In this document: one piece after another, positions 15,264 through 35,587 of the stretch | How positions within the stretch are numbered: position 1 is the stretch's first letter | How the letters are laid out: each line of letters opens with the position of its first letter | Translations under genes and position numbers: made by a program | Notes under the pieces: model-generated | What the model saw: the letters and a program-made list of their open reading frames with translations, nothing else | Told to the model about the DNA's origin: nothing | Database searches by the model: none | NCBI GenBank assembly: GCA_019637075.1 | Contig: JAHBWI010000001.1 | Span: 744,001 to 808,000, forward strand | From: Nitrospiraceae bacterium | Lineage (GTDB): Bacteria > Nitrospirota > Nitrospiria > Nitrospirales > Nitrospiraceae | Direction of reading: 5' to 3' | Length of the DNA stretch: 64,000 bases

Positions 15264-16383
15264 AGGCCTCCGGCACCGCCCCCATCGAACCGTTTCGGGC
15301 GGCCTTCTCATAGACGCGCAGGAGCGAGTGGATGTGAGGCGCTACGCGGAAACGTTCCTCCACCAGTCGTTGCCCCGCCTCCCCCATGGCCCGAGCCCGC
15401 TCCGGATGCTGCAGCACCTCGTCGATCCGCGTAGCCAAATCGGACGGATCCCCCTGCCTCACCAGATAGCCGGTTTTGCCGTCCTGGAGCCATTCGCGGA
15501 TTCCGCCGGCATCGAACGCGACTACCGGCTTGCCGAATGCCATGGCCTCGATTCCCACCAGACCGAACGCTTCCTTCACCGTCGAGGGCACCGCCAACAC
15601 CGCCGCCCGCTCATACTCACGATCCAGATCGGCCCCGGACAACCACCCGGCAAATCGGACGCGATCTGCCAGTCCTTCCTGCACGACACGCTGTTTCGCC
15701 GGCGCCTCCAATGGTCCCTCCCCGATGACGACGGCGCGCCAGGATTGCGCGCGAAGCAGCGGCAGCGCATCAAGGAAGACTTCGATGCCCTTCTCGGCGC
15801 TGAGTCGTCCCACGAAGAGAATGGTCTCTCCCTCGGTCCGATCATCCCGACTCGACGGCCGCTTGTCCGTGAAGTGCGGTACGACCGTGACCCGCTGATA
15901 ACCTTCCCCTCGAATTTCCTCCGCGAAGGCCTCGCTGGGAGCGATCCAACTCGCCAACCGCCGAAGCGCCGGTCGCATGACCCGCCGAAGCAACCGCTCG
16001 TACTGCCCCAGAGCCGTCATGGGCTCGCATCCGCTTCTCCGAGGGAGCAGATGCAGACTATGCAACGTAAACACTGTCGGCACCCGTTTGCACAACCACG
16101 CCAGGCTGACCGGACTGAATAAACAGTGGCAATGCACCACATCCGGCTTGATGGTCTCGAGCAGTGGTTCAAGCCATCGGCGCATGCCAAATCCACTGAA
16201 CAGGCCGTGGGGCTTCCGCTCGCACCACATCTCCTCCCCCGGATCGCATTCCGACCCGGTCGGGGTGAGATACAAGACGGGGCACTGATGGCCCTGCAGT
16301 CTGAGTCCGGCGCGCAGCTGAGCCAGGTAGACTTCTCCGCCTCCATAGCGCCCTGCGCGATCATGAATATGTAGAATCGTCAC
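15247..16383 (-). CDS. GT4-family glycosyltransferase
   Basis: 378 aa with a GTG start at 16383, preceded by AGGAG at good spacing. The N-terminal MTILHIHDRAGRYGGGEVY is followed by DVVHCHCLFSP. The donor domain has ILFVGRLSAEKGIEVFLDAL and the motif EAFGLVGIEAMAFGKPVVAF. It overlaps the upstream deacetylase by 23 bp. Pairing of a PIG-L deacetylase with a GT4 enzyme is common where an N-acetylated sugar is added and then deacetylated, but the pairing here rests on position only. Confidence 0.92.
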   Translation of the reverse strand: MTILHIHDRAGRYGGGEVYLAQLRAGLRLQGHQCPVLYLTPTGSECDPGEEMWCERKPHGLFSGFGMRRWLEPLLETIKPDVVHCHCLFSPVSLAWLCKRVPTVFTLHSLHLLPRRSGCEPMTALGQYERLLRRVMRPALRRLASWIAPSEAFAEEIRGEGYQRVTVVPHFTDKRPSSRDDRTEGETILFVGRLSAEKGIEVFLDALPLLRAQSWRAVVIGEGPLEAPAKQRVVQEGLADRVRFAGWLSGADLDREYERAAVLAVPSTVKEAFGLVGIEAMAFGKPVVAFDAGGIREWLQDGKTGYLVRQGDPSDLATRIDEVLQHPERARAMGEAGQRLVEERFRVAPHIHSLLRVYEKAARNGSMGAVPEAYAYRN

Positions 16384-17251
16384 GGATCTCCTGCAGTCCT
16401 GCGTGCCGTCGATACAGGCCTAGAAACTCCGCCGCACGGCCCATCCAATAGGCCTCGGCGAAACCGGTACCGCCCAATGCCATATGCCGATATGCGTTGA
16501 GACCGAATACGCCGGACACCAGATCGTTGTCTTTCAACTGGCTTCGATAGGCCTGCAGCGCCTCTCGCTTCGTCGCCGCGGTGTCCGATATGTCCACCAA
16601 CACGTTTGGAAACAGCGGCGTCCAGACCTCGTAGGCGAGGCACATGAACGCCGGCCGCCGCTCCGCGATCAGGTCGAGCAGGATGGCCGCCGTCGCCTTA
16701 TGATCCGCGTGCTCGTCCGTAAAGAACGGGGTCAGGACAAGATCGGGGTTCACGTCATCCAGCAACGCGGAGACCGCCTGTCTTACCGTCTCGGTCGAAC
16801 GCAAGCGTGCATCCTCCTCATCCAAAAAATACTCCGCCGACACACCCAAGACACGGCATGCGCGCTTGGCCTCTTCTTTTCGCGTCGCGACCAATTCCGC
16901 CTGATGGGCAACCTGTTCCGCCCCGGACAACTCCGCCAACCGGCGGTCACCCTGCCGCCCGTCCGTCATGAAGAGGACGCGGACATCCTTGCGGGACTCC
17001 GTCATCTTCCGGATGAGGCCGCCACAGCCGACGGTTTCATCATCCATGTGCGGCGCCAATACGACCACCCTGGAACCGGGCACCTCCGTCAACAACTCCA
17101 CCCCCCGATCCCACCGGCTCCCCATGGTGGCCGCACCCAGGTACCGCGCAAGTCGCTCCGTGTAGTTCACGCCGCGCAGCCAAGCTCCGACCTGCTGTCG
17201 GACGCTGCGCTTCGCTTCTCCCCCTGCGTGATCCGCTTCCCGCCCGTTCAT
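16361..17251 (-). CDS. PIG-L family deacetylase
   Basis: 296 aa. VVVLAPHMDDETVGCGG near residue 65 is the zinc-binding PHxDDE motif, and DEHADHKAT later supplies the family's HxDH ligands. PIG-L enzymes remove acetyl from N-acetylglucosamine-type groups. The ATG at 17251 lies 14 bp after the permease stop; the longer open frame is a shadow of the permease gene. Probably cytosolic, acting on a sugar nucleotide or lipid-linked sugar of this pathway. Confidence 0.88.
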   Translation of the reverse strand: MNGREADHAGGEAKRSVRQQVGAWLRGVNYTERLARYLGAATMGSRWDRGVELLTEVPGSRVVVLAPHMDDETVGCGGLIRKMTESRKDVRVLFMTDGRQGDRRLAELSGAEQVAHQAELVATRKEEAKRACRVLGVSAEYFLDEEDARLRSTETVRQAVSALLDDVNPDLVLTPFFTDEHADHKATAAILLDLIAERRPAFMCLAYEVWTPLFPNVLVDISDTAATKREALQAYRSQLKDNDLVSGVFGLNAYRHMALGGTGFAEAYWMGRAAEFLGLYRRHAGLQEIRDDSTYS

Positions 17252-17265
17252 CTCGTTGTCCAGCT

Positions 17266-18069
17266 CTAGTACTGCCCCAACGTACCGGTCGCTTTGGTCC
17301 AATTCACGGCGTAGGAGAATACCGCCAAGCCGAGAGGGAAGAGCACCAGGCCGAACAACGCCAGCGCCGCGATCTGCGGTATCAGTTGCTCGATCGAAGC
17401 TCCCCGCATCAAGGCTTCTCGCATCCCCTGCACGGAATGGGTGATCGGGAGCAAGGCCGAGAGCGGCCTGGTCCACGACGGCAACACCTCGGGTGGAAAG
17501 ACCACGCCGCCGAGAAATACGGAGGCAAGGCTCATCACCACACTGATATCCGCCTTCTTGAACACCATGACGAACGCCGCCATGAGAATCCCCACGGCTG
17601 CAAAGGACAGGATCGAAAAGAACAAGATCAGACCCGCACCGGTCAGATTCGGATTCTCCAATCGAAAACCGTAAAACGCTCCGCCCACGGCAAGGATGAA
17701 TAGAAATCGGAGCAACGCCAGCATATAGCTCCAGAGCGAGGAGTAGATCAGCAACGCCGGTACTTTGACTGGCGAGAGCAAGATCATCTCCAGCGTTCCC
17801 ATCATTTGGTTGTCCCGGATACTCACGTTGAACGTCGCCAAGCTGACGTTCAGAAAGTCGACGAAGGCCACGCCGACCAACAAGAACGCAAAATAGTTGC
17901 CGCCGTAGTTCTTGAGCAGAGGGCTTTGGCTCAGTCCCAACACCTGTCCCGCGTAGTACAGCACCGACACGCCCCCGAAGAGCAGCAGCATCTGCGAAAG
18001 AAACGCGGTTCGATAGCTGGTGGCCATGAGACAGTCGCGCTTGAGAAATGCCCACGCCGTGCTATTCAT
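17266..18069 (-). CDS. ABC-2 type transporter permease
   Basis: 267 aa with about six transmembrane segments. The N-terminus NSTAWAFLKRDCLMATSYR is typical of ABC-2 exporter permeases, as is the PPEVLPSWTRPLSALLPITH loop. Its start overlaps the end of the ATPase gene by 8 bp, so the two form one transporter. The cargo may be a polysaccharide or glycolipid intermediate. As no Wzx flippase was found in the window, this transporter could take that role, which is an inference. Confidence 0.87.
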   Translation of the reverse strand: MNSTAWAFLKRDCLMATSYRTAFLSQMLLLFGGVSVLYYAGQVLGLSQSPLLKNYGGNYFAFLLVGVAFVDFLNVSLATFNVSIRDNQMMGTLEMILLSPVKVPALLIYSSLWSYMLALLRFLFILAVGGAFYGFRLENPNLTGAGLILFFSILSFAAVGILMAAFVMVFKKADISVVMSLASVFLGGVVFPPEVLPSWTRPLSALLPITHSVQGMREALMRGASIEQLIPQIAALALFGLVLFPLGLAVFSYAVNWTKATGTLGQY

Positions 18070-19078
18070 GCTCCTCGCGGCCTCCTTCTCGGATCAAATC
18101 GCAGAACACTTCTTCGAACTTCGATTCTTCGGCCGTACAAGCCAACACGCGTCCTCGACGCCCCACGATGAATTCGATCACTTCGGGAAACACCGCCCGA
18201 TCGCGAGGAAACGTCACCTCGAGGGTCCTGATGCCGTTCATGCGCACCGCCTCGGCGCAGTCCACGATCCCGTCGATCGCCGCCAAATCCCGCACATCCT
18301 GTTCGGAAAGCCCACCGATTTTGAGGAGATACCGTTGTAGGCTGTGGACCGACTCACGGATTTCACCGATGGTCCCGCAGGCCAGCAGTCGCCCGCGATT
18401 CATCACCGCCACCCGATTACAAATCTCCTCCGCTTCCGTCAGAATATGGGTCGTCATCAGCACGGTCTTCTTAAACGTACCCGCCACCCGTTCCCGGATC
18501 AGCCCGAGCAAGATTTGCGCATTGATCGGATCGACGCCCTTGGTCGGCTCATCCAGGAAGAGGACCTGCGGCTCGTTCAACAGCCCGCGCGCGATGGCCA
18601 GACGCTGCCGCATACCGGTGGAGTAGGAATCGAACCGTTGTTCAACGGCGTCTTTCAACCCCAACGCGTCCACCAGCTCATCGATTCTCCGGTCCACCTC
18701 TTTCCCGAAGATGCCGTGGAGCGCCCCGAAGAAACGCAAGTTCTCTCGCCCGCTCAATCGCCAATAGAAACTCCGCTCGTCGCTGGCCACGAGGCCGATC
18801 AGGGTCCGCACCTTGGCGCCCTCGGCTACCACATCATGCCCACAGATGGCGGCCCGCCCCGACGAAGGCCGAAGCATCGTGCTGAGCATCTTCACCAGCG
18901 TGGTTTTTCCTGCCCCGTTCGGGCCAAGCAAACCGAAAATCTCTCCCGCTTCGATCGAGAGCGAGACGCCCGCCACCGCCGTCTTCTGACGTTGAGAGCC
19001 CCCCGACAGCCACTGTCGTAACCCCAGGCGTGACGTGAAGTGCTTGGTCAGCTCAACGGCTTCGATCGTCATGCTCAT
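18062..19078 (-). CDS. ABC transporter ATP-binding protein
   Basis: 338 aa. The Walker A motif is GLLGPNGAGKTTLVKM, the signature is YSTGMRQRLAIARGL and the Walker B is VLFLDEPTKGVDP. Residues beyond about 240 resemble the short C-terminal domain of drug or lipid exporter ATPases and lack the carbohydrate-binding domain of Wzt. It works with the adjacent permease. The start overlaps the FemAB gene stop by 4 bp (ATGA). Confidence 0.92.
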   Translation of the reverse strand: MSMTIEAVELTKHFTSRLGLRQWLSGGSQRQKTAVAGVSLSIEAGEIFGLLGPNGAGKTTLVKMLSTMLRPSSGRAAICGHDVVAEGAKVRTLIGLVASDERSFYWRLSGRENLRFFGALHGIFGKEVDRRIDELVDALGLKDAVEQRFDSYSTGMRQRLAIARGLLNEPQVLFLDEPTKGVDPINAQILLGLIRERVAGTFKKTVLMTTHILTEAEEICNRVAVMNRGRLLACGTIGEIRESVHSLQRYLLKIGGLSEQDVRDLAAIDGIVDCAEAVRMNGIRTLEVTFPRDRAVFPEVIEFIVGRRGRVLACTAEESKFEEVFCDLIREGGREEHE

Positions 19079-20175
19079 GACGCGCCCCTTTGTCTCGTTG
19101 CCACGGCACCGGTCAGCAAGTGCCGAACGCCCCGACTACGCTCCACAATTTGCACCCGCCAGCTCGGTCTGTGCAGGTGGAGGGCATACTGTGTCCTGGC
19201 ACCGGTCGCCCAATGTGCCTTGTAGGCTTCCTCCCCGCGCAAAAAGTTGTATTCGCTGATCCCTTGGAAGATCGCGTGCTCCAGAACCCGTGCCTGCATG
19301 ATCAGCGTCGTGCCCTCGCGCGACCACTCGACGTCGTAGCAGGAGTTGTACGCATACAGCGTGGTCCCGCCTCGCAGACACAGTTCCGCCGCCACGGTGA
19401 GTCCGTTGAGCTTCAGCACGAACAGGATCAGCCAGCCGTTCTTCGCAAACAGCCGCGCCATCTCGCTGCGAAACGCCCGATACTCCTTCGACGTCAGCAG
19501 CGGATAGTCGGCAAAGCGTTTGGCGTAGAGATCCAGGAATGTCGGGAACTCGCGCTCGATATCGTCGGGATCGGTCAGAGGCAGGAATTCCAGACTGTGC
19601 TTCTTCGAGAGGCGGTTGCCGTAGTATTTCACGTTCCGTTGGGTGCTCGTCCCCCGAGTCGCCAAGAACTCCGACCAACCCTTCGGCAAGGCTACGAACG
19701 GCAACTTGCCGGTGGGGCCTTCACTCAAACCACGCAGGGTGCGCAGGGATGCCCGATAGGTGCGCAGAGGCGACTCGTCCGGCAATTCCGGCAGATCGAG
19801 ATAGTCGATTCCCTGTTCAGCGATCGCGGCGGTGATCAAGTCGACGACTTCCGCCTCGTAGCCTGGTCGCGCCAGAATGTCCTGCATATCGGTCAGCGGC
19901 GCGCCCAGCAGCGTCGCGCGCGACACGAAGGCCAGGCCTACGGCCCCCATGACTCGGATTTGCAGTGGGCAGGCTCCGACGAGCCGCCCGCCCTCCGCGC
20001 GCACCAGCAGCACGCACAAACGCGTGGAACCGCCATAGTGCGTCCAATAGGTGCTCAACCACTCGTGAGTACTGAACGGCGACTTCCCCGCGTCGCGAAC
20101 GAGGGCGTTCCATTCGTCCCGCAGCCCAGCGAAGGCCGAAGCCTCGTGCAAGACGGTTACGCCGAAGGTTGCCAT
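19075..20175 (-). CDS. FemAB-like / GNAT acyltransferase (third copy)
   Basis: 366 aa. The N-terminal pattern GLRDEWNALVRDAG then FSTHEWLSTYWTHYG matches the two related proteins at 21305 and 24949. The C-terminal half (NGLTVAAELCLRGGTTLYAYNSCYD, QARVLEHAIFQGISEYNFLRG) fits the FemAB/Acetyltransf_6 fold. Such proteins transfer amino-acyl or acyl groups to amines and are frequent in exopolysaccharide loci. The ATG at 20175 overlaps the aminotransferase gene by 19 bp. It could acylate the amine made by the neighbouring enzyme. Confidence 0.8.
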   Translation of the reverse strand: MATFGVTVLHEASAFAGLRDEWNALVRDAGKSPFSTHEWLSTYWTHYGGSTRLCVLLVRAEGGRLVGACPLQIRVMGAVGLAFVSRATLLGAPLTDMQDILARPGYEAEVVDLITAAIAEQGIDYLDLPELPDESPLRTYRASLRTLRGLSEGPTGKLPFVALPKGWSEFLATRGTSTQRNVKYYGNRLSKKHSLEFLPLTDPDDIEREFPTFLDLYAKRFADYPLLTSKEYRAFRSEMARLFAKNGWLILFVLKLNGLTVAAELCLRGGTTLYAYNSCYDVEWSREGTTLIMQARVLEHAIFQGISEYNFLRGEEAYKAHWATGARTQYALHLHRPSWRVQIVERSRGVRHLLTGAVATRQRGAS

Positions 20176-21308
20176 TGCTCGATTTCCTTCGCCATCCACT
20201 GCATATGCTCCACGGTCAAGTCTTGATGGATGGGCAACGCGACCGCCCGCTGTTTCAACCACCCCGCCGAAGGGAATCGCTCGGCGGGCCACTGTGCGTG
20301 CGTCTCGCGCCACAAGGGAGCGGCTTCAATCCCGCGACGGCGCAAATAGTCGATCAAACCGTCGGCATCGTCCACGACGACTGGACAGAGCCACGGGCAG
20401 GCTCCGTCCGGCAAGGCGGTGAACAGTGGCCGGACCAGCCCGGTGGAACCGATTCGCCCGATCAACTCCGCGAAGTTGGCCCGGCGACGCCGAACGACCG
20501 CGGCGTGATCCGTTCGTTCGACGATCCAGCGTGAAAGTGTCGACATGCCCCAGTCGGCGCCCGCAACTCCAAAATCGAGCGAAGGATCATTGGCCCTCGG
20601 ATGCCTTCGCCGACCGGTCAGCCTGTTCCAGAAGGCGAATGGAATGCCTGCCGTTCCCGCCGCCCGCGCCATCACTCGACGCCGCATCGGGATGCCGACG
20701 CGATGCGCGCTCCGTTGGGCCTCGAACCGCAACATGCTGAATGTTTCTTCAGCCGGGGGTGGAACGGCGCTGTCGGACACGGAGGCCGATCGCAGGGCTC
20801 CGCCCTCCGGAACCGGAAGAAACTTCCTCAGGCTATAGACCGCCATCGCTCCCGACTGGCCGCAGGCTTGATTGCGGAGATCCCGGCTGTACAGCGCGTG
20901 CGCGCAGTCTTCAATCAAGGCCAGCCCATGTTCCCGGCACAACGCGTGCGCGGGCTCCAGTTCGACGGGAAATCCAAAATAATGGATCACGAACAGCGCG
21001 CGCGTCCGGGCATCCACCAGCCGATGCAGGGCCGTCCAATCGATCGACAGGCTGGGATCGACATCGTAAAACGCGATGTTCAATTCGGCTTTCACACAGA
21101 CATCCAGTTCGGCTCCGCAGTGGTAGGCAGGAAACAGCACCCGGTCGCCTGGTTTCAGCCCCAACTGCCGAAGGCCTTGCCACAGGGCATTGCTGGCGCT
21201 GAACTGCAGGCTGATCGCGCGGTCCAATAACACTGGGGGCATCCCCATGGCCACGGACGACCACGTTTCGCCGAACAGCACTGGAGCGGCCTGCACCTTC
21301 AACGTCAC
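20157..21308 (-). CDS. DegT/DnrJ/EryC1/StrS-family aminotransferase (copy 2)
   Basis: 383 aa. RVLFPAYHCGAELDV and LALIEDCAHALYS (the aspartate that binds the PLP ring nitrogen) are family motifs. AVYSLRKFLPVPEGGAL carries the presumed PLP lysine. These enzymes aminate keto groups of sugar nucleotides or similar substrates. The GTG at 21308 is chosen because it forms a 4-bp GTGA overlap with the upstream FemAB stop. It is homologous to the enzyme at 23733, differing around the lysine. Substrate unknown. Confidence 0.87.
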   Translation of the reverse strand: MTLKVQAAPVLFGETWSSVAMGMPPVLLDRAISLQFSASNALWQGLRQLGLKPGDRVLFPAYHCGAELDVCVKAELNIAFYDVDPSLSIDWTALHRLVDARTRALFVIHYFGFPVELEPAHALCREHGLALIEDCAHALYSRDLRNQACGQSGAMAVYSLRKFLPVPEGGALRSASVSDSAVPPPAEETFSMLRFEAQRSAHRVGIPMRRRVMARAAGTAGIPFAFWNRLTGRRRHPRANDPSLDFGVAGADWGMSTLSRWIVERTDHAAVVRRRRANFAELIGRIGSTGLVRPLFTALPDGACPWLCPVVVDDADGLIDYLRRRGIEAAPLWRETHAQWPAERFPSAGWLKQRAVALPIHQDLTVEHMQWMAKEIEQWQPSA

Positions 21309-22420
21309 GATTCCGCTCCCGTCCCGCGCCGGCCCCTCCACAGACGCACCAGCCGTTTCAGGCCCAATAAGGTTCGCGAATAGGCCGAAGAATTGAACAC
21401 TTCCACATGGTGGTGCCGACGTGTATGGGTCTGCCAGCGACTGGTGAAGTGGGTTTGCTGATCGAGATCGATCTCCTTGGCGAGACCTTCGCGGAATGAC
21501 TGCTCGATCGCGTGACGAATCACCCCGCTTCCTGGAGACGCCTTGTCTACTCCGGCCACATAGGTGGTCTTTTCCGCATAGAGCGTTCCCTCGTAAAGCA
21601 GACCGAAAATCGTCGCCATCGGCCGATCGTCGATCTTAAGCACCCACGCACGCCAAGCCTGACGCTCCGCATGTCGTCGAATGATCTCCCGGTAGAAGGC
21701 CTTGAATTCATCCCGCTCCGACAGCGACTCTCCATGCCGCACTTTCCAACTCTGCGCCTCGATGCCAAGGAAGTGATCCAGATAGGCCTCCACCTGTTCC
21801 GGTGCGTCATAACGGTCGAAGGCCAACCTGCCCAGACTCTCCAGGATTTGCAGTTCCTTTTTGGCGCGTTTGCGATGGTGCCCCGTTTTGGCGGCGAAGT
21901 ACGCATCCCATCCGCCTCCGAGGTCAACAATGGCATTCTCCCAGGTCGCGATCGGCAAGACCGACCAGCCTCTCCTATGGTTGGCGAACGACAGTCGCAT
22001 GAGTGTCTCCGAAACGCCCGATGAATCCGACATGCCGTAGAGCGAGAGGATATCCCACTCCGCTCTGGCATCGGCCAGGTGGTCTAGGATGGCGGAGACG
22101 CACTCATCCGCTTGCTCCGGGGCTATGACGAAGTTTCCCCGGACATTGCAACGGTTCAGCAAGAATCCCAATTGCCGCACCGGCAAGCCCTTCACTGTCT
22201 TGGTAGTCCGCATGAGCGGGGCGACGCCGACGAGTCGGTGCCCGTCCCGAACCAGCAGCACACATAACTCGCCGTCCTTGACGAAGTGCTCGCACCAGAG
22301 GCTGACCCATTCATGGGTTACGTAGAGATCGGGGTTGAGTGAGTGCGCGACGAGACGATCCCACTCCTCCTTGAGAGGAATGAGATCGCGCACCGCCGTC
22401 ACTCGTTCAATCTGCAGCAT
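21305..22420 (-). CDS. FemAB-like / GNAT acyltransferase (second copy)
   Basis: 371 aa. Starts MLQIERVTAVRDLIPLKEEW and has YVTHEWVSLWCEHF, LLVRDGHRLVGVAPL and, in the second half, the Acetyltransf_6 core (DRPMATIFGLLYEGTLYAEKTTY, ASPGSGVIRHAIEQ). It is clearly related to the protein at 24949 of nearly equal length. It lies between a GNAT and an aminotransferase in the same order as the other copy. The likely role is attaching an acyl or amino-acyl group to an aminated precursor. Confidence 0.82.
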   Translation of the reverse strand: MLQIERVTAVRDLIPLKEEWDRLVAHSLNPDLYVTHEWVSLWCEHFVKDGELCVLLVRDGHRLVGVAPLMRTTKTVKGLPVRQLGFLLNRCNVRGNFVIAPEQADECVSAILDHLADARAEWDILSLYGMSDSSGVSETLMRLSFANHRRGWSVLPIATWENAIVDLGGGWDAYFAAKTGHHRKRAKKELQILESLGRLAFDRYDAPEQVEAYLDHFLGIEAQSWKVRHGESLSERDEFKAFYREIIRRHAERQAWRAWVLKIDDRPMATIFGLLYEGTLYAEKTTYVAGVDKASPGSGVIRHAIEQSFREGLAKEIDLDQQTHFTSRWQTHTRRHHHVEVFNSSAYSRTLLGLKRLVRLWRGRRGTGAES

Positions 22421-22441
22421 GTCAGACCTTGAGCCGCTCGA

Positions 22442-23179
22442 TTAGGAACCCGGCACGTGCGGGGACACCGATGCGCCGACTTCAACGACCGCCGCCGGTT
22501 TCAGGCGCTCGTCCCGCTTGGGGCGCTTCCGACTCTCGAAGGAGGGATCCGGTTCGATATACAGCAGTCTCGGACGGCGCCGAATCATCGCGGTTCGCCG
22601 CGATGTGATTCGCTGAATCTCACGAAATCCAAAATGGGCAGACATGTTCAGCGAGGAGACATTCGTGGTTTGCGTAATCGTGATGCATTTTCTGTAGCCT
22701 TGCTCCTTGAAGGAGAGAAACGCGTACTCGAGCAACGCTCCCGTCACCATAGACTTGCGATACTCCGGGTCGACTACCAATCCGTTCCCGTAGACGGTCG
22801 TGGGCCCCAGATCAAATTCGAGGCCGATCTGCCGGAGGTGATACCGCTCCACCCCCATTCCCAGGTGCCCGACAAGGCGGCCCCCGTCGAAGGCTCCGAA
22901 ACCGATCTCGTGGGCTCCCCGGAACAGAAAGTAGTAGAGCTTTTGTTCGAGGCTCATCCGCGGCGCCAATATCGGATAGTCGGCCTCCGTCAGTCGACGA
23001 ATCGTGTAGCGGGAACGAGCCGTGTAGCGCGGTAGGATGGTGGTCAAATCCAACTCCAAACACAGAAACTCTTCATTCAACCGCACAAACCGTCGCATCC
23101 GCCAGGCGACTCGATCGACAAGCCCCTGCCAGCCTTCGTTAGCCAGCACCTCGCCCAATTTCTTCACCCGTCTCAACAT
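22442..23179 (-). CDS. GNAT-like N-acyltransferase (module copy 2)
   Basis: 245 aa. The segment LDLTTILPRYTARSRYTIRR at about residues 43-62 is shared with the GNAT at 26103. The GNAT core follows, with a GNGLVVDPEYRKSMVTGALL acetyl-CoA-binding region and NVSSLNMSAHFGFREIQR. The ATG at 23179 is the start that overlaps the upstream VOC gene by only 7 bp; the longer open frame is a shadow. The C-terminal 35 residues are charged and low in complexity. Likely acylates an amine in the pathway. Confidence 0.78.
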   Translation of the reverse strand: MLRRVKKLGEVLANEGWQGLVDRVAWRMRRFVRLNEEFLCLELDLTTILPRYTARSRYTIRRLTEADYPILAPRMSLEQKLYYFLFRGAHEIGFGAFDGGRLVGHLGMGVERYHLRQIGLEFDLGPTTVYGNGLVVDPEYRKSMVTGALLEYAFLSFKEQGYRKCITITQTTNVSSLNMSAHFGFREIQRITSRRTAMIRRRPRLLYIEPDPSFESRKRPKRDERLKPAAVVEVGASVSPHVPGS

Positions 23180-23736
23180 CGGCAATGATCTCTTTTCCCG
23201 TCGGCGGAAACCCGATCGTAGGTCACCGGAGTCTCGGCCAATTCGAGGAGGACTCGTTCTCGGGTGTAACAGAATGCGATCCGTGCCCCGTGAAAGCCGC
23301 AGGCTTCGACAGGGGGGCACACCACGCGCGCGCCCTCCGATTTAAGCCGCACCATCTCAGCATCCAGGTCATCGGTCTTGAAGCACAGGTGGTGGACGCC
23401 CCCGCCGGTTTTTTGGAGAAAGCGTGTGATCGGCGAGGCGGCACCCACCGGTTCAATGAGTTCGATGCGACGACCCAAGGACGGCTGAAACAAAAACAGG
23501 GCCGACACTTTCTGCAGGGGATCGGTCAGCACGGGTGAGTCCACTTCCGCCCCGATCGAACGGGCGATCGCTTCATAGACCGCGTGGATCGACGGCACCG
23601 CGATGCCGACGTGATGAAGGGCACCGCCCGACACACCCGACACACCCCGCGCTCCGACATCGAGCACTCTGTCCAGTTCCCGTGCCCATTCGCTGTTCAT
23701 CTCGTCGGGCGCGTCGATCCCATTGATGCCGCTCAT
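23173..23736 (-). CDS. VOC-family protein, methylmalonyl-CoA-epimerase-like
   Basis: 187 aa. The motifs ALHHVGIAVPS, RIELIEP, GGVHHLCFKTDD and RVLLELAE supply the two histidines and two glutamates that bind the metal in methylmalonyl-CoA epimerase and related VOC proteins. The second ATG (23736) makes a 4-bp ATGA overlap with the aminotransferase stop and is preferred over 23742. An epimerase of a CoA ester or keto compound between two aminotransferase modules suggests that a chiral precursor is prepared here; that is an inference. Confidence 0.82.
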   Translation of the reverse strand: MSGINGIDAPDEMNSEWARELDRVLDVGARGVSGVSGGALHHVGIAVPSIHAVYEAIARSIGAEVDSPVLTDPLQKVSALFLFQPSLGRRIELIEPVGAASPITRFLQKTGGGVHHLCFKTDDLDAEMVRLKSEGARVVCPPVEACGFHGARIAFCYTRERVLLELAETPVTYDRVSADGKRDHCRC

Positions 23737-24956
23737 ACGCATTGTTCCGCCGTAACGGTTTGTGGCGAGCCGAGGGTGTGAGACTCACGACCCCGATCCC
23801 AGGCCGTCAATGCTTCCCTCGTCACCGACCAAGCCGGCGAATCGAGGTGTTGATGCACGGGAAGCGCCACGACATGCGCACGGAGAGAGGCTTCCTCAGA
23901 AAACTTCTCCGCGGGAAACAGAGGATGAAGCTCCCGCCACATCATGAAAGTCTCCAGCCCCCTTGCGCGGAGGAAGCGCCGAAAGGCTACCGGATCCTCC
24001 ACGGTCACGGGGTAGTACAGGGGGCACGCACCCGCTGGAAGGTCACTCAAGAGCGGAGCCACGCAAGAAAGCGTGCGAACGAATGAATCCATCGTGAGAT
24101 AGTTGCGCCGGCGCGCCATTCGAATCGCCTCATGATCCGCGGTCAAGAATAAATGCCTGGAGACCGCCGTCATGCCCCATTCGCCGCGCTCAACCGCGAA
24201 TAGGGGCACCCACAAGGGTTGCTTCCGCCAGGAATCATGCGAGGTCTTCGCACTCACGCCGCGTGCCGCCCGCGCCAAGGGCTCCAGACATTTGCGCACC
24301 CCCTCGAACCACCCGGTCCCTCGAAACTCCATTTCCAGCAATTGCTTGGTTGCCCGCAGGACCTCATACCCGCTTGGAGGCTGCCCAGGCTCGGGCATTT
24401 GCAGATCCGGATTGTTCACCACCAGAGCGCCGCCGAACGGCATAGCTACGCTCTTCCAGAGGCTGAATACGGCCACATCGCCATCGCCTCCGACAGGCCT
24501 ACCCTCACGTCGGCTATAGAGGGCCATGGCGCAATCCTCGATGAGCGCGAGGCGGTGACGGCGGCAGAGGGCCAGAATCTCGGTGAGGTCCTGCGGGATT
24601 CCGTAGTAGTGAATAACGTACAAGGCTCGCGTTTCCGGCCCCACCTGCTGTTCGATGGTCCGTGCGTCGAGCGTCAGGCCCCGTCCCACACCATAGAATG
24701 AAATGCCCATGCCGGCAGCCGACAACACGTCGAGTTCGATCCCGCAATGATAGGCCGGAAAAAGCACCTGGCTGCCGGCTTCCAATCTGAGAGCTTTGAG
24801 CGCATGCCACAGGGCGTTGCTTCCCCGAAAATAGAAGCGGGTCCGCTCCGGCGTAAACGGTTCGGGCCACAGGCGCGGCCGAAGGGCGGACTGAACCGCC
24901 TGCTTCGTCAAGCGCGGGAGCGGATGGGCATGAATGGGCGGATTCGAGTCAGTCAT
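23733..24956 (-). CDS. DegT/DnrJ/EryC1/StrS-family aminotransferase (copy 1)
   Basis: 407 aa. Shares QVLFPAYHCGIELDV and LALIEDCAMALYS with the copy at 20157. The presumed PLP lysine is in VFSLWKSVAMPFGGAL. The ATG at 24956 is chosen because it overlaps the upstream FemAB stop by 8 bp. The sequence is clearly homologous to copy 2 but well diverged, so the two probably act on different substrates or steps. An aminated sugar or small acid is the expected product. Confidence 0.87.
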   Translation of the reverse strand: MTDSNPPIHAHPLPRLTKQAVQSALRPRLWPEPFTPERTRFYFRGSNALWHALKALRLEAGSQVLFPAYHCGIELDVLSAAGMGISFYGVGRGLTLDARTIEQQVGPETRALYVIHYYGIPQDLTEILALCRRHRLALIEDCAMALYSRREGRPVGGDGDVAVFSLWKSVAMPFGGALVVNNPDLQMPEPGQPPSGYEVLRATKQLLEMEFRGTGWFEGVRKCLEPLARAARGVSAKTSHDSWRKQPLWVPLFAVERGEWGMTAVSRHLFLTADHEAIRMARRRNYLTMDSFVRTLSCVAPLLSDLPAGACPLYYPVTVEDPVAFRRFLRARGLETFMMWRELHPLFPAEKFSEEASLRAHVVALPVHQHLDSPAWSVTREALTAWDRGRESHTLGSPQTVTAEQCV

Positions 24957-26067
24957 ATACCCCGGCTTCTTGCGTGGGCGTCGCTCTCGGCCGGAGCAAG
25001 TCACGCACGACGCGGGCGCCGCGCAGCAACCTCGAGCGGGCTCCCTCGTGAAAACATTCGATCTTGAGATACCGTTCCGCGTGCGATGTCCACCGTTGAA
25101 CGTAGGGCCACGTCATCAAACAGTCGATTCTGTCCGCACCGCTGCGCCAGGTGTCGCGCAGATACTCCTGCATCATCACCATTCCCGGCGAATGTTTCGC
25201 GAACTGGACGTTGTGTTTCGTGACAAGGGCGAACGAGGTGCGCCCCAGGTCCACGGAAAACCAGCCGGCTACGGGCTTGCCGTCCACCGTCATGAGTCTC
25301 ACTTCGGCCGCGCCGCTCCTGGAGAATTCCTTCCCGAGAAACAAACCCGCTTCGGCCGAGACCCGGTCGCTCTCCGGCGACTGCTCCTGTTTGTGCCGGT
25401 GATTGTCCTCCTGAAGGCTGTAGACGATCCGAAGCTGCCGATCGACTTCGGCGGGTTCCCTCGTACAGTGAAACTCCAGGGCACCGGCCCGCCGCAAACG
25501 GTTCTCGTTATTGCGCAGATGCTTGCGGAAGTGCACCCCGCAAGAATGCAGAAAATCTTCCCACTCCCTTTGGATCGGCATCACCGAAGCTTGATTGAAC
25601 GATTCCCACGCGCCTAGGGACAGTCCGTTCGGAAGACCGAGCCGGGGCAACGCCGCCACCGTACGCGATTGTTCGGCCACCCCCTCGAACCGGGCAAGAT
25701 CCCAATCCTGCCGATGCTCGGACAGGTACGCCAACATGGCCGCAAGCACCTGATCCGACTCGTCCGCCACCACGAAATCGCCTCGATACCAGGGCAGGCT
25801 TTCGTGCAAAAAGCACAATTGCCTCAGTGTGATGCCGCAACGCATTACTCGGCGAATCTGGAGGGGTGCGAACCCGACGAGGCGACCGTCCTGCCGGACG
25901 ATCAGGACGTACAGCTCGTGCTCCGAGCAAAACCACCGCCGGCACATCGTGAACCACTCATGCGTCAGCAACAGATCATGCTGCTTCGAGTCCCGCAGCA
26001 ATGCGTTCCACTCATTGCCGACCGCAGAGAACTCTCCGTCAGTCGCGAGGCGCGTGACCGTCAGCAT
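24949..26067 (-). CDS. FemAB-like / GNAT acyltransferase (first copy)
   Basis: 372 aa starting MLTVTRLATDGEFSAVGNEW, with LLTHEWFTMCRRWF and LIVRQDGRLVGFAPL aligned to the copy at 21305. The second half (KPVAGWFSVDLGRTSFALVTKH, AKHSPGMVMMQEYL) is a typical Acetyltransf_6/BioF2-like domain. The ATG at 26067 fits the family start; the upstream extension is low-complexity. It sits 35 bp after the GNAT gene and overlaps the aminotransferase by 8 bp. Confidence 0.82.
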   Translation of the reverse strand: MLTVTRLATDGEFSAVGNEWNALLRDSKQHDLLLTHEWFTMCRRWFCSEHELYVLIVRQDGRLVGFAPLQIRRVMRCGITLRQLCFLHESLPWYRGDFVVADESDQVLAAMLAYLSEHRQDWDLARFEGVAEQSRTVAALPRLGLPNGLSLGAWESFNQASVMPIQREWEDFLHSCGVHFRKHLRNNENRLRRAGALEFHCTREPAEVDRQLRIVYSLQEDNHRHKQEQSPESDRVSAEAGLFLGKEFSRSGAAEVRLMTVDGKPVAGWFSVDLGRTSFALVTKHNVQFAKHSPGMVMMQEYLRDTWRSGADRIDCLMTWPYVQRWTSHAERYLKIECFHEGARSRLLRGARVVRDLLRPRATPTQEAGVYD

Positions 26068-26102
26068 ATCTGGCCTGCTTCCTAACTCTTCGAACCGGAA
26101 CC

Positions 26103-26759
26103 CTACACCTGTGCGTGTGTCCGCCTCGGCGCGCGTTGCCCCCGTTCCCGCTGAATCGGCCCCTGGTGCTCCGCGTCCAAGACGGTTACCCAACGCATCC
26201 CCAAGACCTTCTGCACGCGAACGCGACGTACCTGCCGAAACTCGAAGTGCCGCGCCAGAGCCAACGAACTATGGTTGAGGGTCTCGATCCCCCCCAGAAC
26301 ACGTTTGAACCCTTCGTCTTTCAGACGCAACATGACGGTTTCTTTCAAGAACCCCGCCGCTTTTCCGCCCCTGTAGCGGGGCTCGACCTCGATGGCAAGA
26401 TTGACGATGTGTCGGTCGTCCGGCGGAATCGGGTAACAAAATTCACGATTCACCGGTGAGTATTGTCTCCCGACCAGCATCCACCCCGCCCAGGCCATCC
26501 CGTCATACAGCGCAAACACCCGGCAGCCCTCCCCGATCGCATCCAGGAGCACCTGCCGATCCGCTTCGGGCAATGGGCAGGCCTGCGAACCGAGGTCCGT
26601 CGCGCCGACTTCCCGAACCGTAAATGAGGGATGTTTCGTATAGCGCGGCAAGAGCGTATCCAGGGACCGCTCGACATGGATCAACTCCTTGGAGTCATAC
26701 ATCAGCTCGAACAGTCGGCTCATCCGCCGCCGTACTGCTCCCCATAACTCTTGCCCCAC
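26103..26759 (-). CDS. GNAT-like N-acyltransferase (module copy 1)
   Basis: 218 aa. The GTG at 26759 follows a GGGAGGAG ribosome-binding site; an ATG at 26723 is an alternative. The segment LDTLLPRYTKHPSFTVRE matches the GNAT at 22442. The core has VNLAIEVEPRYRGGKAAGFL (acetyl-CoA-binding loop) and ETLNHSSLALARHFEFRQV. It opens the first GNAT-FemAB-aminotransferase module. Acyl donor and acceptor are unknown. Confidence 0.78.
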   Translation of the reverse strand: MGQELWGAVRRRMSRLFELMYDSKELIHVERSLDTLLPRYTKHPSFTVREVGATDLGSQACPLPEADRQVLLDAIGEGCRVFALYDGMAWAGWMLVGRQYSPVNREFCYPIPPDDRHIVNLAIEVEPRYRGGKAAGFLKETVMLRLKDEGFKRVLGGIETLNHSSLALARHFEFRQVRRVRVQKVLGMRWVTVLDAEHQGPIQRERGQRAPRRTHAQV

Positions 26760-26785: not shown

Positions 26786-27583
26786 CTACCGCACCGCCGG
26801 AGTGATAATGACCGTCTGCGTAGTCTTCCCGCTCGCGCCGGTCAAGGCGTCGCGCACCTGCGGACCCAGCACGATGGCCTGTTCGAAGAACACCAGCGGG
26901 AACAAGGCCTGCAGGACATGGCCGAAGAACTTGTCCATGTCGGCCACGAAGCTCCTCGGGACGAATATCACGTCGCCCGGCTGCAGCTGCACGTTGGGCG
27001 TGAGCTTGTTCCCCTCGAAAAACTCGTCCATGTTCAGCCGCTGCAAATCCGGTTTGCCCGCCTTGTTGCGGACGAGCACGACACTCGTCCGGTCGGCTCC
27101 GTCGGTAAACCCGCCGGCTTTGGAAATGACCTCCGCCGCCCGCATCGAACTCTCCAGCGTAAAGACCGACGGCGCTTTGACTTCGCCGAGCACGTAGACT
27201 TTATGGCTCTTGATCGAACGTACCGAGAGGCTGACCTGTGGATCGACAATGCGATCCTTGAGCCGATCCTGGATCACCCGCCGCAATTCCGTGACGCCCA
27301 GCGTCTTCACGTCGATCTCGCCGACGAGGGGATAGAAGATGATCCCCGACCCAGGGACCGTGATCTTTCTGGTGAGATCGTCGTACTGATACACCTCGAC
27401 TTCTACTTCGTCGCCGGGCCCGAGGGAGAACTCGCTGAACTCAAAGGCGGGCTGTCCTCCGGGCGGCTCTTCCGGCTCATGCGCCATCTCCACCACCTTG
27501 CTGGCGCACCCGATCCCGAACTGAGTACAAAACACCGCGATCACCAGCCACACCGCCGCCCGCATCCGCCACGTATTGCGCAT
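26786..27583 (-). CDS. Polysaccharide export lipoprotein (Wza/OPX type)
   Basis: 265 aa. The signal peptide ends in the lipobox IGCAS (cysteine near residue 26), so it is likely an outer-membrane lipoprotein. The export domain starts at FSLGPGDEVEVEVYQYDD and is followed by an SLBB segment (KVYVLGEVKAPSVFTLE) and a C-terminal hydrophobic stretch near residues 220-236. Together these resemble true Wza-like exporters more than the protein at 1524 does. The ATG overlaps the upstream stop by one base (TGATG). Confidence 0.9.
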   Translation of the reverse strand: MRNTWRMRAAVWLVIAVFCTQFGIGCASKVVEMAHEPEEPPGGQPAFEFSEFSLGPGDEVEVEVYQYDDLTRKITVPGSGIIFYPLVGEIDVKTLGVTELRRVIQDRLKDRIVDPQVSLSVRSIKSHKVYVLGEVKAPSVFTLESSMRAAEVISKAGGFTDGADRTSVVLVRNKAGKPDLQRLNMDEFFEGNKLTPNVQLQPGDVIFVPRSFVADMDKFFGHVLQALFPLVFFEQAIVLGPQVRDALTGASGKTTQTVIITPAVR

Positions 27584-29334: not shown

Positions 29335-30594
29335 TCAGGTCGAGGCGAGTACAATTCCACCTGCGATAGGTTCTCCGTGATGCTCCAACGTGAACCGCCC
29401 CATAGCCGCAATGGCTCCGAACGCATCGGCCACGACCGGTGCGTCCAGTTCGAGCTCGACCTCCGCCACCTCGGAGGCTTGGATCTCTCCGGCATCCGCC
29501 TCCACAAGCGCCAACTCCGCCGGATCGAATCGCTTGGCGATCCTGGCAATGCGCGCCGTCGTTTCCTGCGTCGTGCCTTTCCAGGTGGCCCGATCGCCGA
29601 GCCGGCCCGGTCGATCCGACAGCCACAGCAAGGAGGCTCGCAGGCGATCGCGACAGACGACGGGCCCCTGATCGACGAGCACCTGTCCACGGCGCCACTC
29701 CTGCTCCGGCGCCTCGATACCGACGCAATCTCCTTCAGGCGCCTCGGTCACATTGGGCGCGAGAAATTTTCTGATGCCCCATGTGTCCGGCAGGCGCAAC
29801 CCCTCGGGCATCACCCACAGCGGGCACCCCGTGCGCAATACGCCGGACTCGACTCGACCCACCCCGATGCGGCATCCCTCAACGTCGTAGGAGTCCTGGA
29901 TCGGCAATCGCAAGGCCTCGCTCATCCGCTGGGCCCGCTGAAACCCACCGAGCGTCTCCACCACCGTCGGCCCCTGGTACCAAGGCATCTCTTCCGAACG
30001 GGTGACCAGGTTGTCCCCCAACCGCGCGGCGATCGGAATCACCTCTGCCGCGCAGACACCGCAGGCCCGCAACACGCGCTCGACTTCGCTCTTCATCTCG
30101 GCAAACGCGCGTTGCGAATAACCCACCAGATCCATCTTGTTGACGACGACGGCAATCGACTTGATCCCGAGCAGTCCGAGGATGTAGCAGTGCCGCCAGG
30201 TTTGCTCCTTGATCCCTTGCGTGATGTCCACCAACACCAGCGCCGCTTCCGCCTGAGACGATCCCGTGACCATGTTCTTCAGGAACTCCCGGTGCCCCGG
30301 GGCGTCGATGATCACATAGCGACGGCCTCCGTGCTGGAATTGCATTTGCGCCGAATCGATCGTGATCCCCTTCTCGCGCTCCTCGGCAAAGTGATCGAGG
30401 ATGTGCGCATATTCCCACTGAACGCCTTGGCGTTCGGCCGCAGCTTGAATTTCCTCGAGCTTGCCGATGGGCAAGGAATCGGTATCGTGGAGCAGGCGGC
30501 CGATCAGGGTGCTCTTTCCGTGGTCGATATGGCCGACGATGACGACGTGAAGCGCTTGCTCGCTGAGCTGGTGAGGAGTCTGGTGATCGGTCAT
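29335..30594 (-). CDS. CysN-like sulfate adenylyltransferase GTPase subunit, divergent
   Basis: 419 aa, no APS-kinase (CysC) domain. G1 is GHIDHGKSTLIGRLL, switch II is IDAPGHREFLKNMVTG and G4 is NKMD. Canonical CysN has VDDGKST and DTPGHEQ, so this chain mixes CysN features (GRLL, EREKGITID, RRH.....LLGIK) with EF1A-like ones. The beta-barrel domains follow and the total is about 50 residues shorter than E. coli CysN. In the standard pair the GTPase drives APS synthesis from ATP and sulfate by CysD. The ATG overlaps the CysD-like stop by one base, so the two are coupled. Confidence 0.8.
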   Translation of the reverse strand: MTDHQTPHQLSEQALHVVIVGHIDHGKSTLIGRLLHDTDSLPIGKLEEIQAAAERQGVQWEYAHILDHFAEEREKGITIDSAQMQFQHGGRRYVIIDAPGHREFLKNMVTGSSQAEAALVLVDITQGIKEQTWRHCYILGLLGIKSIAVVVNKMDLVGYSQRAFAEMKSEVERVLRACGVCAAEVIPIAARLGDNLVTRSEEMPWYQGPTVVETLGGFQRAQRMSEALRLPIQDSYDVEGCRIGVGRVESGVLRTGCPLWVMPEGLRLPDTWGIRKFLAPNVTEAPEGDCVGIEAPEQEWRRGQVLVDQGPVVCRDRLRASLLWLSDRPGRLGDRATWKGTTQETTARIARIAKRFDPAELALVEADAGEIQASEVAEVELELDAPVVADAFGAIAAMGRFTLEHHGEPIAGGIVLAST

Positions 30595-31397
30595 CACATG
30601 TACCCCAGCGCGCGAAGTTTCTGCATCGTAAACGCGTCCTCTTTGTCTTGCGCCCGTCCCGCTCGTTCGGCCGTCGTAGTCGTCTGCAGCTCGATCAGAA
30701 TATCGGCGACGCTCGCGGCGTCGGAATCGACCGGGGTGCAGCAGTGGGTACACCCGATGCTCCGATACCGCTTGCCGCCGTCGCTCATGTAGAGGGAGGT
30801 CATGGGGATGCGTTCCCGTTCGATGTAACGCCAGATGTCCAATTCGGTCATGTGCAGGATCGGATGGACCCGCACATGGCCGCCCTCGTCCGAGACCGAG
30901 CGGTATTGGTCCCACAACTCGGCGGGCTGATTGACGTAATCCCAGGTGAATTTGTCGTTCCGTGGCGAGAAGACCCGTTCCTTGGCGCGGATGCCGTGCT
31001 CGTCGCGGCGAATGCCCAGCAACAGCGCCTCGAATCCGTATTTCGCAATGGTCATCTTCAACGCGTCGGTCTTCAACGCCGAGCAGCAATCGAGCTTGGC
31101 ACCCTTCCACGGAGCCATGCCGGCGTCGATCGCCTCTTCATTGCGCCCCACGATGAGATTGAGGTTCCACTTCCGGGCGTACTCATCCCGAAATCGATAG
31201 ATCTCCGGAAACTTGTAGCCGGTGTCGATATGAATGACCGGAAACGGAATACGCCCGAAGAACGCCTTGCGGCACAGCCAGAGCATGGTCGTGGAATCTT
31301 TACCGATCGACCACAACATGGCCATGTTCTTGAATTGGGCGTAAGCTTCCCGAATGATGTAGATACTTTTATTTTCCAGAGCGGTCAGATGATCCAT
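30594..31397 (-). CDS. CysD-like ATP-sulfurylase / PAPS-reductase-superfamily protein with extra cysteines
   Basis: 267 aa, preceded by TAGGAGG. It aligns with CysD over most of its length: LWSIGKDSTTML (PP-loop), PFPVIHIDTGYKFPE, RRDEHGIRAKER, TELDIWRYI and the ERAGR...LRALGYM tail. It lacks the loop that CysD has between the TELDIW helix and the GC motif. Unlike CysD it has CC at 104-105 and CTHCC at 216-220, which recall the CC...CxxC iron-sulfur ligands of APS reductases. It may make APS, or it may do a related reaction. The partner is the CysN-like GTPase. Confidence 0.8.
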   Translation of the reverse strand: MDHLTALENKSIYIIREAYAQFKNMAMLWSIGKDSTTMLWLCRKAFFGRIPFPVIHIDTGYKFPEIYRFRDEYARKWNLNLIVGRNEEAIDAGMAPWKGAKLDCCSALKTDALKMTIAKYGFEALLLGIRRDEHGIRAKERVFSPRNDKFTWDYVNQPAELWDQYRSVSDEGGHVRVHPILHMTELDIWRYIERERIPMTSLYMSDGGKRYRSIGCTHCCTPVDSDAASVADILIELQTTTTAERAGRAQDKEDAFTMQKLRALGYM

Positions 31398-31405
31398 TCG
31401 GCCTC

Positions 31406-32782
31406 CTAACAAGACACTCCACAGGGTTTGGTGAGGCACTCGAGAATCGTGCCCGCCAACTGCTCGATGTGCAGTCGGCCGTCGACGGCAAGCGCCTCGG
31501 GCAACAGGCAATGGCCGTCGTATTGGGTATGCATGCCGGTCATCGGGCCCTTGCGGAAAATCACCGGCTGGGTGACGTTCGCTTTCAGATCAAACCCGTC
31601 CTGAGGCACACACACCAAGTCCGGCGCCGTCGAGGTGGCTTGACCGTGGTACAGCGCGTCACCGAGATAGATGTCCCGCACGACCGGCCGCCCGTCCGGC
31701 GCCCGCAATCCCGCCAACGCACCGGCCAACTCCTCGAGCACGGACTGCTTGTCGATAGCCGACACCGTGCCCCGAGGATACCGGCCCTCGACATGCACGA
31801 AGAATCTCCCAGGGTCCATCGCAAACACCCGCGTCTCGTCCGCAATGCGATCGAACCATTGCCCCTGTTCGCGCAACCGCAGCCACCCTTCCTGCTGCAG
31901 CCAGGCATTGAGATTGACCTCTTGGTCCAAAACCGTGAATCCATGATCCGACAACGTCAGGAACAGCCCCTCCCCATCCGTCATGTCCATGAAGCGATGG
32001 AACAACCGGTTCACGACGGCATCGACATGCCGGTACAGCTCGAGAAACGGTTCGTGGTGGGGATGAGCCGGATTCCGCGCCGCGTCGAAGAAAAAGTGCT
32101 GCAGCCGGTCCGTTTCGGTGATAACGCCGAGGAAGAGGTCCCAGGGTTCACGCTCCAGGAAATGGAGAAACGCTTCCTCTCGTTTCTGCAGGGCGTAGCG
32201 GATATCCTTCAGGAAGGCCGGCTTATCGGTGACGGCCTTCCCCGCATCGACGTCGGCCACGTAGTCGATCGATTTCAGGTACTCGTAGGCCGCCTCCGGA
32301 TAGGTGCCCTTCTGAAGATCAGGACAGACGAATCCCGCTGTCATGATCCCGTTGATCGGCCGTGCCGGATAGGTCTGAGGAATGTTCAGCACGATCGATC
32401 GCAAAGGTTCGGGAAACGCCCCTTCGAGCCGCGCGGCCAAAGAGGAGGTTCGCCCTCCCGCCGTTCCCCCGACGATGTCCCACATCGTCGGCGCCTGCAC
32501 GTCTCGCGCACTGGGGAAAAAGAGCTGGTAGCTGCGGGGCCGGAGATCCATGAACCCATAGATGCCGTGTTCGCCGGGATTGACCCCGGTCATGAACGAC
32601 GTCCAGCAGGTGGAGCTGATTTCCGGAATGGATACCTGCATCTGGTGCAACCGATAGCCCCGCCCGGTGATCTCCCGGAAACCGGGGAGAATGCCTTGAT
32701 CCATATATTCCTGCAGCAGCGACGAGGGCACCCCATCGAGACCGATGCCCATGACCTTTCTGCGCGTGGTTTGTTCCGACAT
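31406..32782 (-). CDS. Alkaline-phosphatase-superfamily phosphodiesterase/phosphohydrolase (COG3379-like), copy 2
   Basis: 458 aa starting MSEQTTRRKVMGIGLDGVPS. SSTCWTSFMTGVNPGEHGIYGF aligns with the nucleophile region of the copy at 27583, and LTLSDHGFTVLD with its metal motif. It is about 100 residues shorter than copy 1. No signal peptide is visible. The ATG at 32782 is chosen because the family sequence starts just after; the longer frame is low-complexity. It precedes the CysD-like gene by 8 bp, so it is probably cotranscribed and functionally linked. Confidence 0.84.
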   Translation of the reverse strand: MSEQTTRRKVMGIGLDGVPSSLLQEYMDQGILPGFREITGRGYRLHQMQVSIPEISSTCWTSFMTGVNPGEHGIYGFMDLRPRSYQLFFPSARDVQAPTMWDIVGGTAGGRTSSLAARLEGAFPEPLRSIVLNIPQTYPARPINGIMTAGFVCPDLQKGTYPEAAYEYLKSIDYVADVDAGKAVTDKPAFLKDIRYALQKREEAFLHFLEREPWDLFLGVITETDRLQHFFFDAARNPAHPHHEPFLELYRHVDAVVNRLFHRFMDMTDGEGLFLTLSDHGFTVLDQEVNLNAWLQQEGWLRLREQGQWFDRIADETRVFAMDPGRFFVHVEGRYPRGTVSAIDKQSVLEELAGALAGLRAPDGRPVVRDIYLGDALYHGQATSTAPDLVCVPQDGFDLKANVTQPVIFRKGPMTGMHTQYDGHCLLPEALAVDGRLHIEQLAGTILECLTKPCGVSC

Positions 32783-32903
32783 GTCCGCTGATTCTCCTAT
32801 CCGCTGACGTATACGAAAACAGTTCTCTCTGGAAGCGGCACAGCAGGCGTTCAGCCGAGACAACCGTCGGCCTGGTCGATAGCCCAACCGAGGATCACGG
32901 TCC

Positions 32904-35581: not shown

Positions 35582-35587
35582 CACGCC

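Follow-up and report, generated by a model that had tools for sequence, protein, structure and literature searches.

FemABX aminoacyl-tRNA-dependent transferases, such as FemX of Weissella, FemA of Staphylococcus, Orf11/Sba18 and DhpH-C, have a tandem-GNAT fold. Both F304 and K305 of FemX are essential residues, and a role in stabilising the intermediate is attributed to K305 (PMC4964394); in DhpH-C, an F328-K329 pair is in use (PMC12945691). FemAB-like proteins also occur in environmental exopolysaccharide clusters, where they have no known role. We analysed a 64,000-nucleotide stretch of Nitrospiraceae DNA (the window) that carries three such genes, FemAB1 to FemAB3. Like FemABX, FemAB2 has the tandem-GNAT fold (Z 20-21.6), and FemAB3 and most relatives examined here retain the aromatic-Lys motif of FemX and DhpH-C. 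Unlike FemABX, the window FemABs are encoded in an exopolysaccharide cluster and adjoin DegT aminotransferase genes; their sequence identity to FemABX is about 10-15%, and FemAB1 and FemAB2 lack the lysine. A literature search found no description of this gene arrangement. New here are a lysine-less FemAB clade with a link to GNATs and the FemX fold of FemAB2.

Two further described systems offer partial parallels. The window DegTs share with the DegT/DnrJ/EryC1/StrS sugar aminotransferases (PF01041) the large-domain match, at 81.5 and 95.3 bits against a cut-off of 19.8, and the PLP lysine, Lys184, which is invariant across an 18-row DegT alignment and kept by both DegT1 and DegT2. However, the Pfam and solved-structure matches cover their first half only, and the C-terminal half is divergent. 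The Wza-type export and chain-length proteins of the window resemble TIGR03027 and TIGR03007 of exosortase A (XrtA) clusters, and its ligase resembles TIGR03098, in each case below the curated cut-offs. No exosortase was seen among the cluster genes scanned, and the NCBIfam model of the XrtA/PEP-CTERM-associated FemAB gave no match to FemAB1-3 at E 1e-3.

Organization of the eight-gene module

The eight module genes, all minus-strand, form part of an exopolysaccharide cluster at about positions 380-37342 of the window. Following transcription, they are GNAT1 (26103-26759), FemAB1 (24949-26193, likely start 26067), DegT1 (23733-25004, likely start 24956), a VOC-family gene (23173-23742), GNAT2 (22442-23320, likely start about 23179), FemAB2 (21305-22420), DegT2 (20157-21341, likely start 21308) and FemAB3 (19075-20313, likely start 20199 or 20175). 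Open reading frames and domain matches confirmed this order, which the initial annotation had proposed within 20157-26759, limits beyond which most of FemAB3 lies. From likely starts with ribosome-binding-like sequence, the FemAB-DegT junctions overlap by 8 nt in copy 1 and 4 nt in copy 2. The FemABs match PF13480 and GNAT2 matches PF00583. GNAT1, which had no Pfam match at 1e-3, is a GNAT by fold only: its model (pLDDT 82) matches GNAT structures, with a Foldseek E of 7e-8 to one of them. The VOC protein (PF13669) is methylmalonyl-CoA-epimerase-like and scores 73.9 bits with TIGR03081, under the cut-off of 114.95.

Past FemAB3 follow, also on the minus strand, an ABC transporter ATPase (18062-19078, PF00005), an ABC-2 permease (17266-18069, PF12698/PF01061) and a protein with a C-terminal PIG-L deacetylase domain (16361-18055, PF02585), together with several GT4 glycosyltransferases. 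The upstream flank is formed by a Wza-type polysaccharide export protein (26786-27583, minus strand, PF02563), and this side also holds two AlkP-superfamily phosphodiesterases, CysD, CysN and a ketopantoate-reductase-like protein. Further upstream lie the genes for an AMP-forming acyl-CoA ligase (33962-35584, minus strand, PF00501) and a sugar transferase-nucleotidyltransferase fusion protein. Scanning of the cluster genes revealed no recognisable nucleotide-sugar (4,6-)dehydratase.

Two side observations concern the cluster as a whole. It encodes two distinct Wza-type export proteins, the second at 1524-2222. In addition, CysD and CysN, which act in sulfate activation, lie between the two AlkP-superfamily phosphodiesterase genes (29335-32992); this placement suggests that sulfur activation is tied to the polymer, and no sulfotransferase was recognised in connection with CysD/CysN in the exopolysaccharide cluster.

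Two diverged copies of a GNAT-FemAB-DegT set

Pairwise protein comparison established that the two trios are paralogous and have one gene order. DegT1 and DegT2 are 38.7% identical over 341 aa (E 2e-67), FemAB1 and FemAB2 27.6% over 370 aa (E 3e-36), and GNAT1 and GNAT2 25.1% over 191 aa (E 8e-15), the last alignment taking in the N-terminal LPRYT region. FemAB3 is 23-27% identical to FemAB1 and FemAB2 (E about 1e-18). The motifs initially listed as shared are present, with LPRYT in both GNATs and FPAYHCG..LDV in both DegTs; THEW occurs in all three FemABs, but is not specific to the locus because it is close to LTHEW, the near-consensus of the whole FemAB family. At the DNA level, similarity between the copies is almost nil (best 95 nt at 67%, E 0.002). 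Since DNA similarity is nearly gone and protein identity is 25-39%, the copies are old, and a recent duplication is ruled out.

This divergence also bears on how many products the module makes. The two trios might act sequentially on one sugar, for example to give a diamino sugar, or one trio might be a partly redundant back-up, so that the polymer would have a single type of acylated residue. The genes all lie close together or overlap on a single strand, as would fit a set expressed together, the catalytic lysine is kept in both DegTs, and no separate export or glycosyltransferase set was seen for each trio. Nevertheless, we consider a single product rather unlikely, as identities of 38% between the DegTs and under 30% between the FemABs and GNATs are of a kind that usually accompanies different substrates.

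We asked how the copies relate to genes elsewhere. FemAB1 and FemAB2 form a clade (99/92) with one FemAB from G454, a member of the window's family (locus L109), and the FemAB of G502, an Acidobacteriota metagenome-assembled genome; DegT1, DegT2 and the G502 DegT form another (96/84). In a concatenated FemAB and DegT tree, in which WIN1 and WIN2 are window copies 1 and 2, the topology was WIN1,(G454,(WIN2,G502)), with supports of 98/95, 90/86 and 94/92. The FemAB-only tree points in the same direction, with copy 2 nearer the relatives, and a nine-row GNAT tree gave no resolved branching. Forcing the window copies to be sisters costs 8 log-likelihood units (concatenated, AU p 0.10); for FemAB alone and DegT alone, AU p is 0.22 and 0.49. 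The proposal of a segmental duplication followed by divergence is thus upheld as regards paralogous trios in one order with joint FemAB and DegT clades, but the copies are old and the trees do not establish them as each other's closest relatives: copy 2 groups with G502 (94/92), although strict sisterhood is compatible with the data (AU p 0.10).

G502 is also informative through its gene neighborhood. Its contig C336 (L157, 1-20000) carries a cross-phylum syntenic counterpart of this polysaccharide cluster, with a sugar transferase-nucleotidyltransferase fusion 43% identical over 585 aa, Wza (39%), ABC ATPase (41% over 332 aa), ABC permease (45%) and PIG-L protein (33%), as well as two GT4s, a phosphodiesterase and Wzy, in an order resembling that of the window. 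In G502, the ABC ATPase comes directly after wza, at the very point that the eight genes occupy in the window. The one FemAB and one GNAT of this genome are several kilobases apart on the same contig, and a single DegT ends another contig. A syntenic cluster in a second phylum means that inter-phylum transfer happened at some point.

The doubling is ancient, and the sequences are compatible both with a duplication that preceded transfer or loss and with recruitment of the copies one after the other. Because copy 2 is nearer to the single genes of G502 and G454 than copy 1 is (90/86, 94/92), one copy may come from outside. Acquisition of the trios separately from one cluster family, as xenologues, with no duplication in this lineage, is a real though tentative possibility. 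It agrees with the tree topologies and with the inter-phylum transfer implied by the syntenic cluster, and two adjacent copies were found in no other genome of the order. On the other hand, the sisterhood of the copies is not rejected in any of the three comparisons, and the longer branch of copy 1 can artificially push it outwards. A foreign base composition of the module was looked for and not seen, as it matches that of the remaining cluster, and a single duplication explains the identical three-gene order more easily. An old duplication of GNAT-FemAB(A)-DegT is the history that we tentatively prefer. G502 speaks in its favor, with one GNAT, one same-clade FemAB, one same-clade DegT and nothing inserted after wza ahead of the ABC ATPase; the GNAT copies, just 25% identical, speak against it.

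The recurrent FemAB-DegT-FemAB unit

The initial annotation suggested looking for the three-gene GNAT-FemAB-DegT unit in other genomes. The unit that recurs, as a single copy in the window's phylum and in Acidobacteriota, is instead FemAB(A)-DegT-FemAB(B). As in the window, a DegT of this subfamily stands between an A-type and a B-type FemAB; these loci differ in being single-copy and in lacking the VOC gene and a separate GNAT gene. Compared with the usual unit, the window thus has an extra FemAB(A)-DegT pair, a GNAT ahead of each pair and the VOC gene. By order and similarity FemAB2 is of the A type, and in the FemAB tree FemAB3 falls in the B-type clade (98/97), which rules out a third duplicate. 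Given this placement, FemAB3 is, on phylogenetic grounds, the partner from the older FemAB-DegT-FemAB unit.

A profile of the DegT subfamily matched in about 4-9% of genomes of the window's phylum, class and order, almost always with one copy per genome, and a search of the order's genomes recovered two adjacent copies in the window genome only. In Acidobacteriota, the subfamily was present in 11 of 396 sampled genomes. The sole match in a scan of named genome contigs was an Acidobacteriota locus, L010, from G502, the nearest foreign relative, and matches in a plasmid collection were merely generic for DegT, weak for FemAB and absent for GNAT2. One Acidobacteriota genome, G521, has two FemAB-DegT-FemAB loci (L135 and L137) on different contigs.

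In the DegT neighborhoods of the relatives examined, no unfused GNAT gene adjoined the DegT. A GNAT lies beside DegT only once, in G405, as part of a 608-aa FemAB-GNAT fusion directly upstream of it (L066:4077-5903); otherwise GNATs are paired, fused or dispersed. G268, from the same family as G405, encodes a 577-aa FemAB-GNAT fusion (L064:16040-17773), and L117 has an adjoining GNAT-FemAB gene pair. By analogy, these fusions support a possible functional link between the GNAT and FemAB of each trio.

FemAB fold, lysine loss and predicted function

The best structural match of the FemAB2 model (pLDDT 92) was FemX (Z 21.6, 303 aligned residues, rmsd 4.1), followed by aminoacyl-tRNA-dependent streptothricin enzymes (Z 20-20.5; Sba18 20.5), and acyl-CoA-dependent tandem GNATs scored Z 17 or less; this ranking concerns the families named in the match lists, and absence from the lists excludes no family. 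We infer that FemAB2 residue 326 is equivalent to FemX K305, from the fit of the motif and the ends of the structural alignment, which stops at model residue 357, paired with FemX 336, and so sets 326 on 305 if it is gap-free between. At the place of the FemX F304-K305 pair, the lysine is present in 42 of the 47 rows with a letter there in a 49-row alignment, a count of sequences, some of them near-duplicates, and not of independent lineages. FemAB3 is among the 42, with YK at 364-365. The exceptions are FemAB1 (V365), FemAB2 (Thr326), the G454 protein L109_14368 (Val), the G502 FemAB (Ile) and one more G454 protein (Gly), of which the first four are all the members of the 99/92 clade. FemAB3, with its FemX-type lysine (K365) in place, is the strongest candidate in the module for aminoacyl transfer that depends on aminoacyl-tRNA.

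The loss raises the question of what FemAB1 and FemAB2 do. They might no longer be catalysts but acceptor-binding or scaffold partners, with acylation carried out by the GNAT. The lysine is gone throughout their clade, each has a GNAT gene ahead of it, and FemAB-GNAT fusions exist in G405 and G268. We regard this as unlikely: the lysine is kept in the two GNAT-associated FemABs that were checked, the fused one of G405 (L066) and the paired one of L117, so its loss characterises a single clade and does not follow generally from the presence of a GNAT. Moreover, the fold is intact, and other chemistry is possible, for example with acyl-CoA as in tandem GNATs. A more far-reaching proposal, which we offer as speculative and improbable, is that the lysine-less, polysaccharide-linked FemAB sub-lineage and a dedicated GNAT form a two-part N-acyltransferase within a modular GNAT-FemAB-DegT unit, doubled for a second N-acyl amino sugar in the exopolymer.

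The doubled three-gene set probably makes and decorates amino sugars. In the reading that we favor, while holding it to be somewhat short of an even chance, the eight genes are an amino-sugar-making and N-acylating cassette in a Wza/ABC-transporter exopolysaccharide cluster, which grew from FemAB(A)-DegT-FemAB(B) by the old duplication and yields two N-acyl amino sugars. Each DegT would aminate a keto-sugar precursor, as its family and kept PLP lysine suggest, and the partner GNAT and A-type FemAB, probably jointly, would acylate or aminoacylate the amine, to judge from operon order, the FemX fold and the fusions elsewhere. FemAB3, the most FemX-like, would act as the candidate aminoacyltransferase, and the PIG-L protein may be a source of free amine. 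More speculatively, the VOC protein and the AMP-forming ligase might have a part in forming the acyl donor, with the ligase as its possible supplier. The absence of the FemX-essential lysine from FemAB1 and FemAB2 counts against this cassette model, as does the failure to recognise a nucleotide-sugar dehydratase in the scanned part of the cluster. Two different acylated amino groups on the polymer, as initially suggested, are plausible and fit the gene content; with copies so far diverged, two different N-acyl amino sugars would be the simplest outcome. The FemAB-DegT-FemAB unit, the GNAT fusions and the lysine-less sub-lineage together lead to concrete predictions on amine decoration of bacterial matrix polymers, for which two diverged copies in one cluster provide a natural internal comparison.

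Other genes recur near these loci. An AMP-forming ligase gene lies near the DegT genes in L060, L061, L062, L110, L111, L112 and G502 (L158:6134-8966); a G502 ligase is 38% identical to that of the window. A protein of about 435 aa usually comes after this ligase; in G502, the gene after it encodes an ornithine/DAP/arginine-decarboxylase-type enzyme, and the pair is near FemAB. Finally, in G502, FG-GAP/ASPIC-UnbV repeat proteins adjoin the FemAB/GNAT genes and also occur just upstream of DegT (L158:8854-11403, L010:7116-9917).
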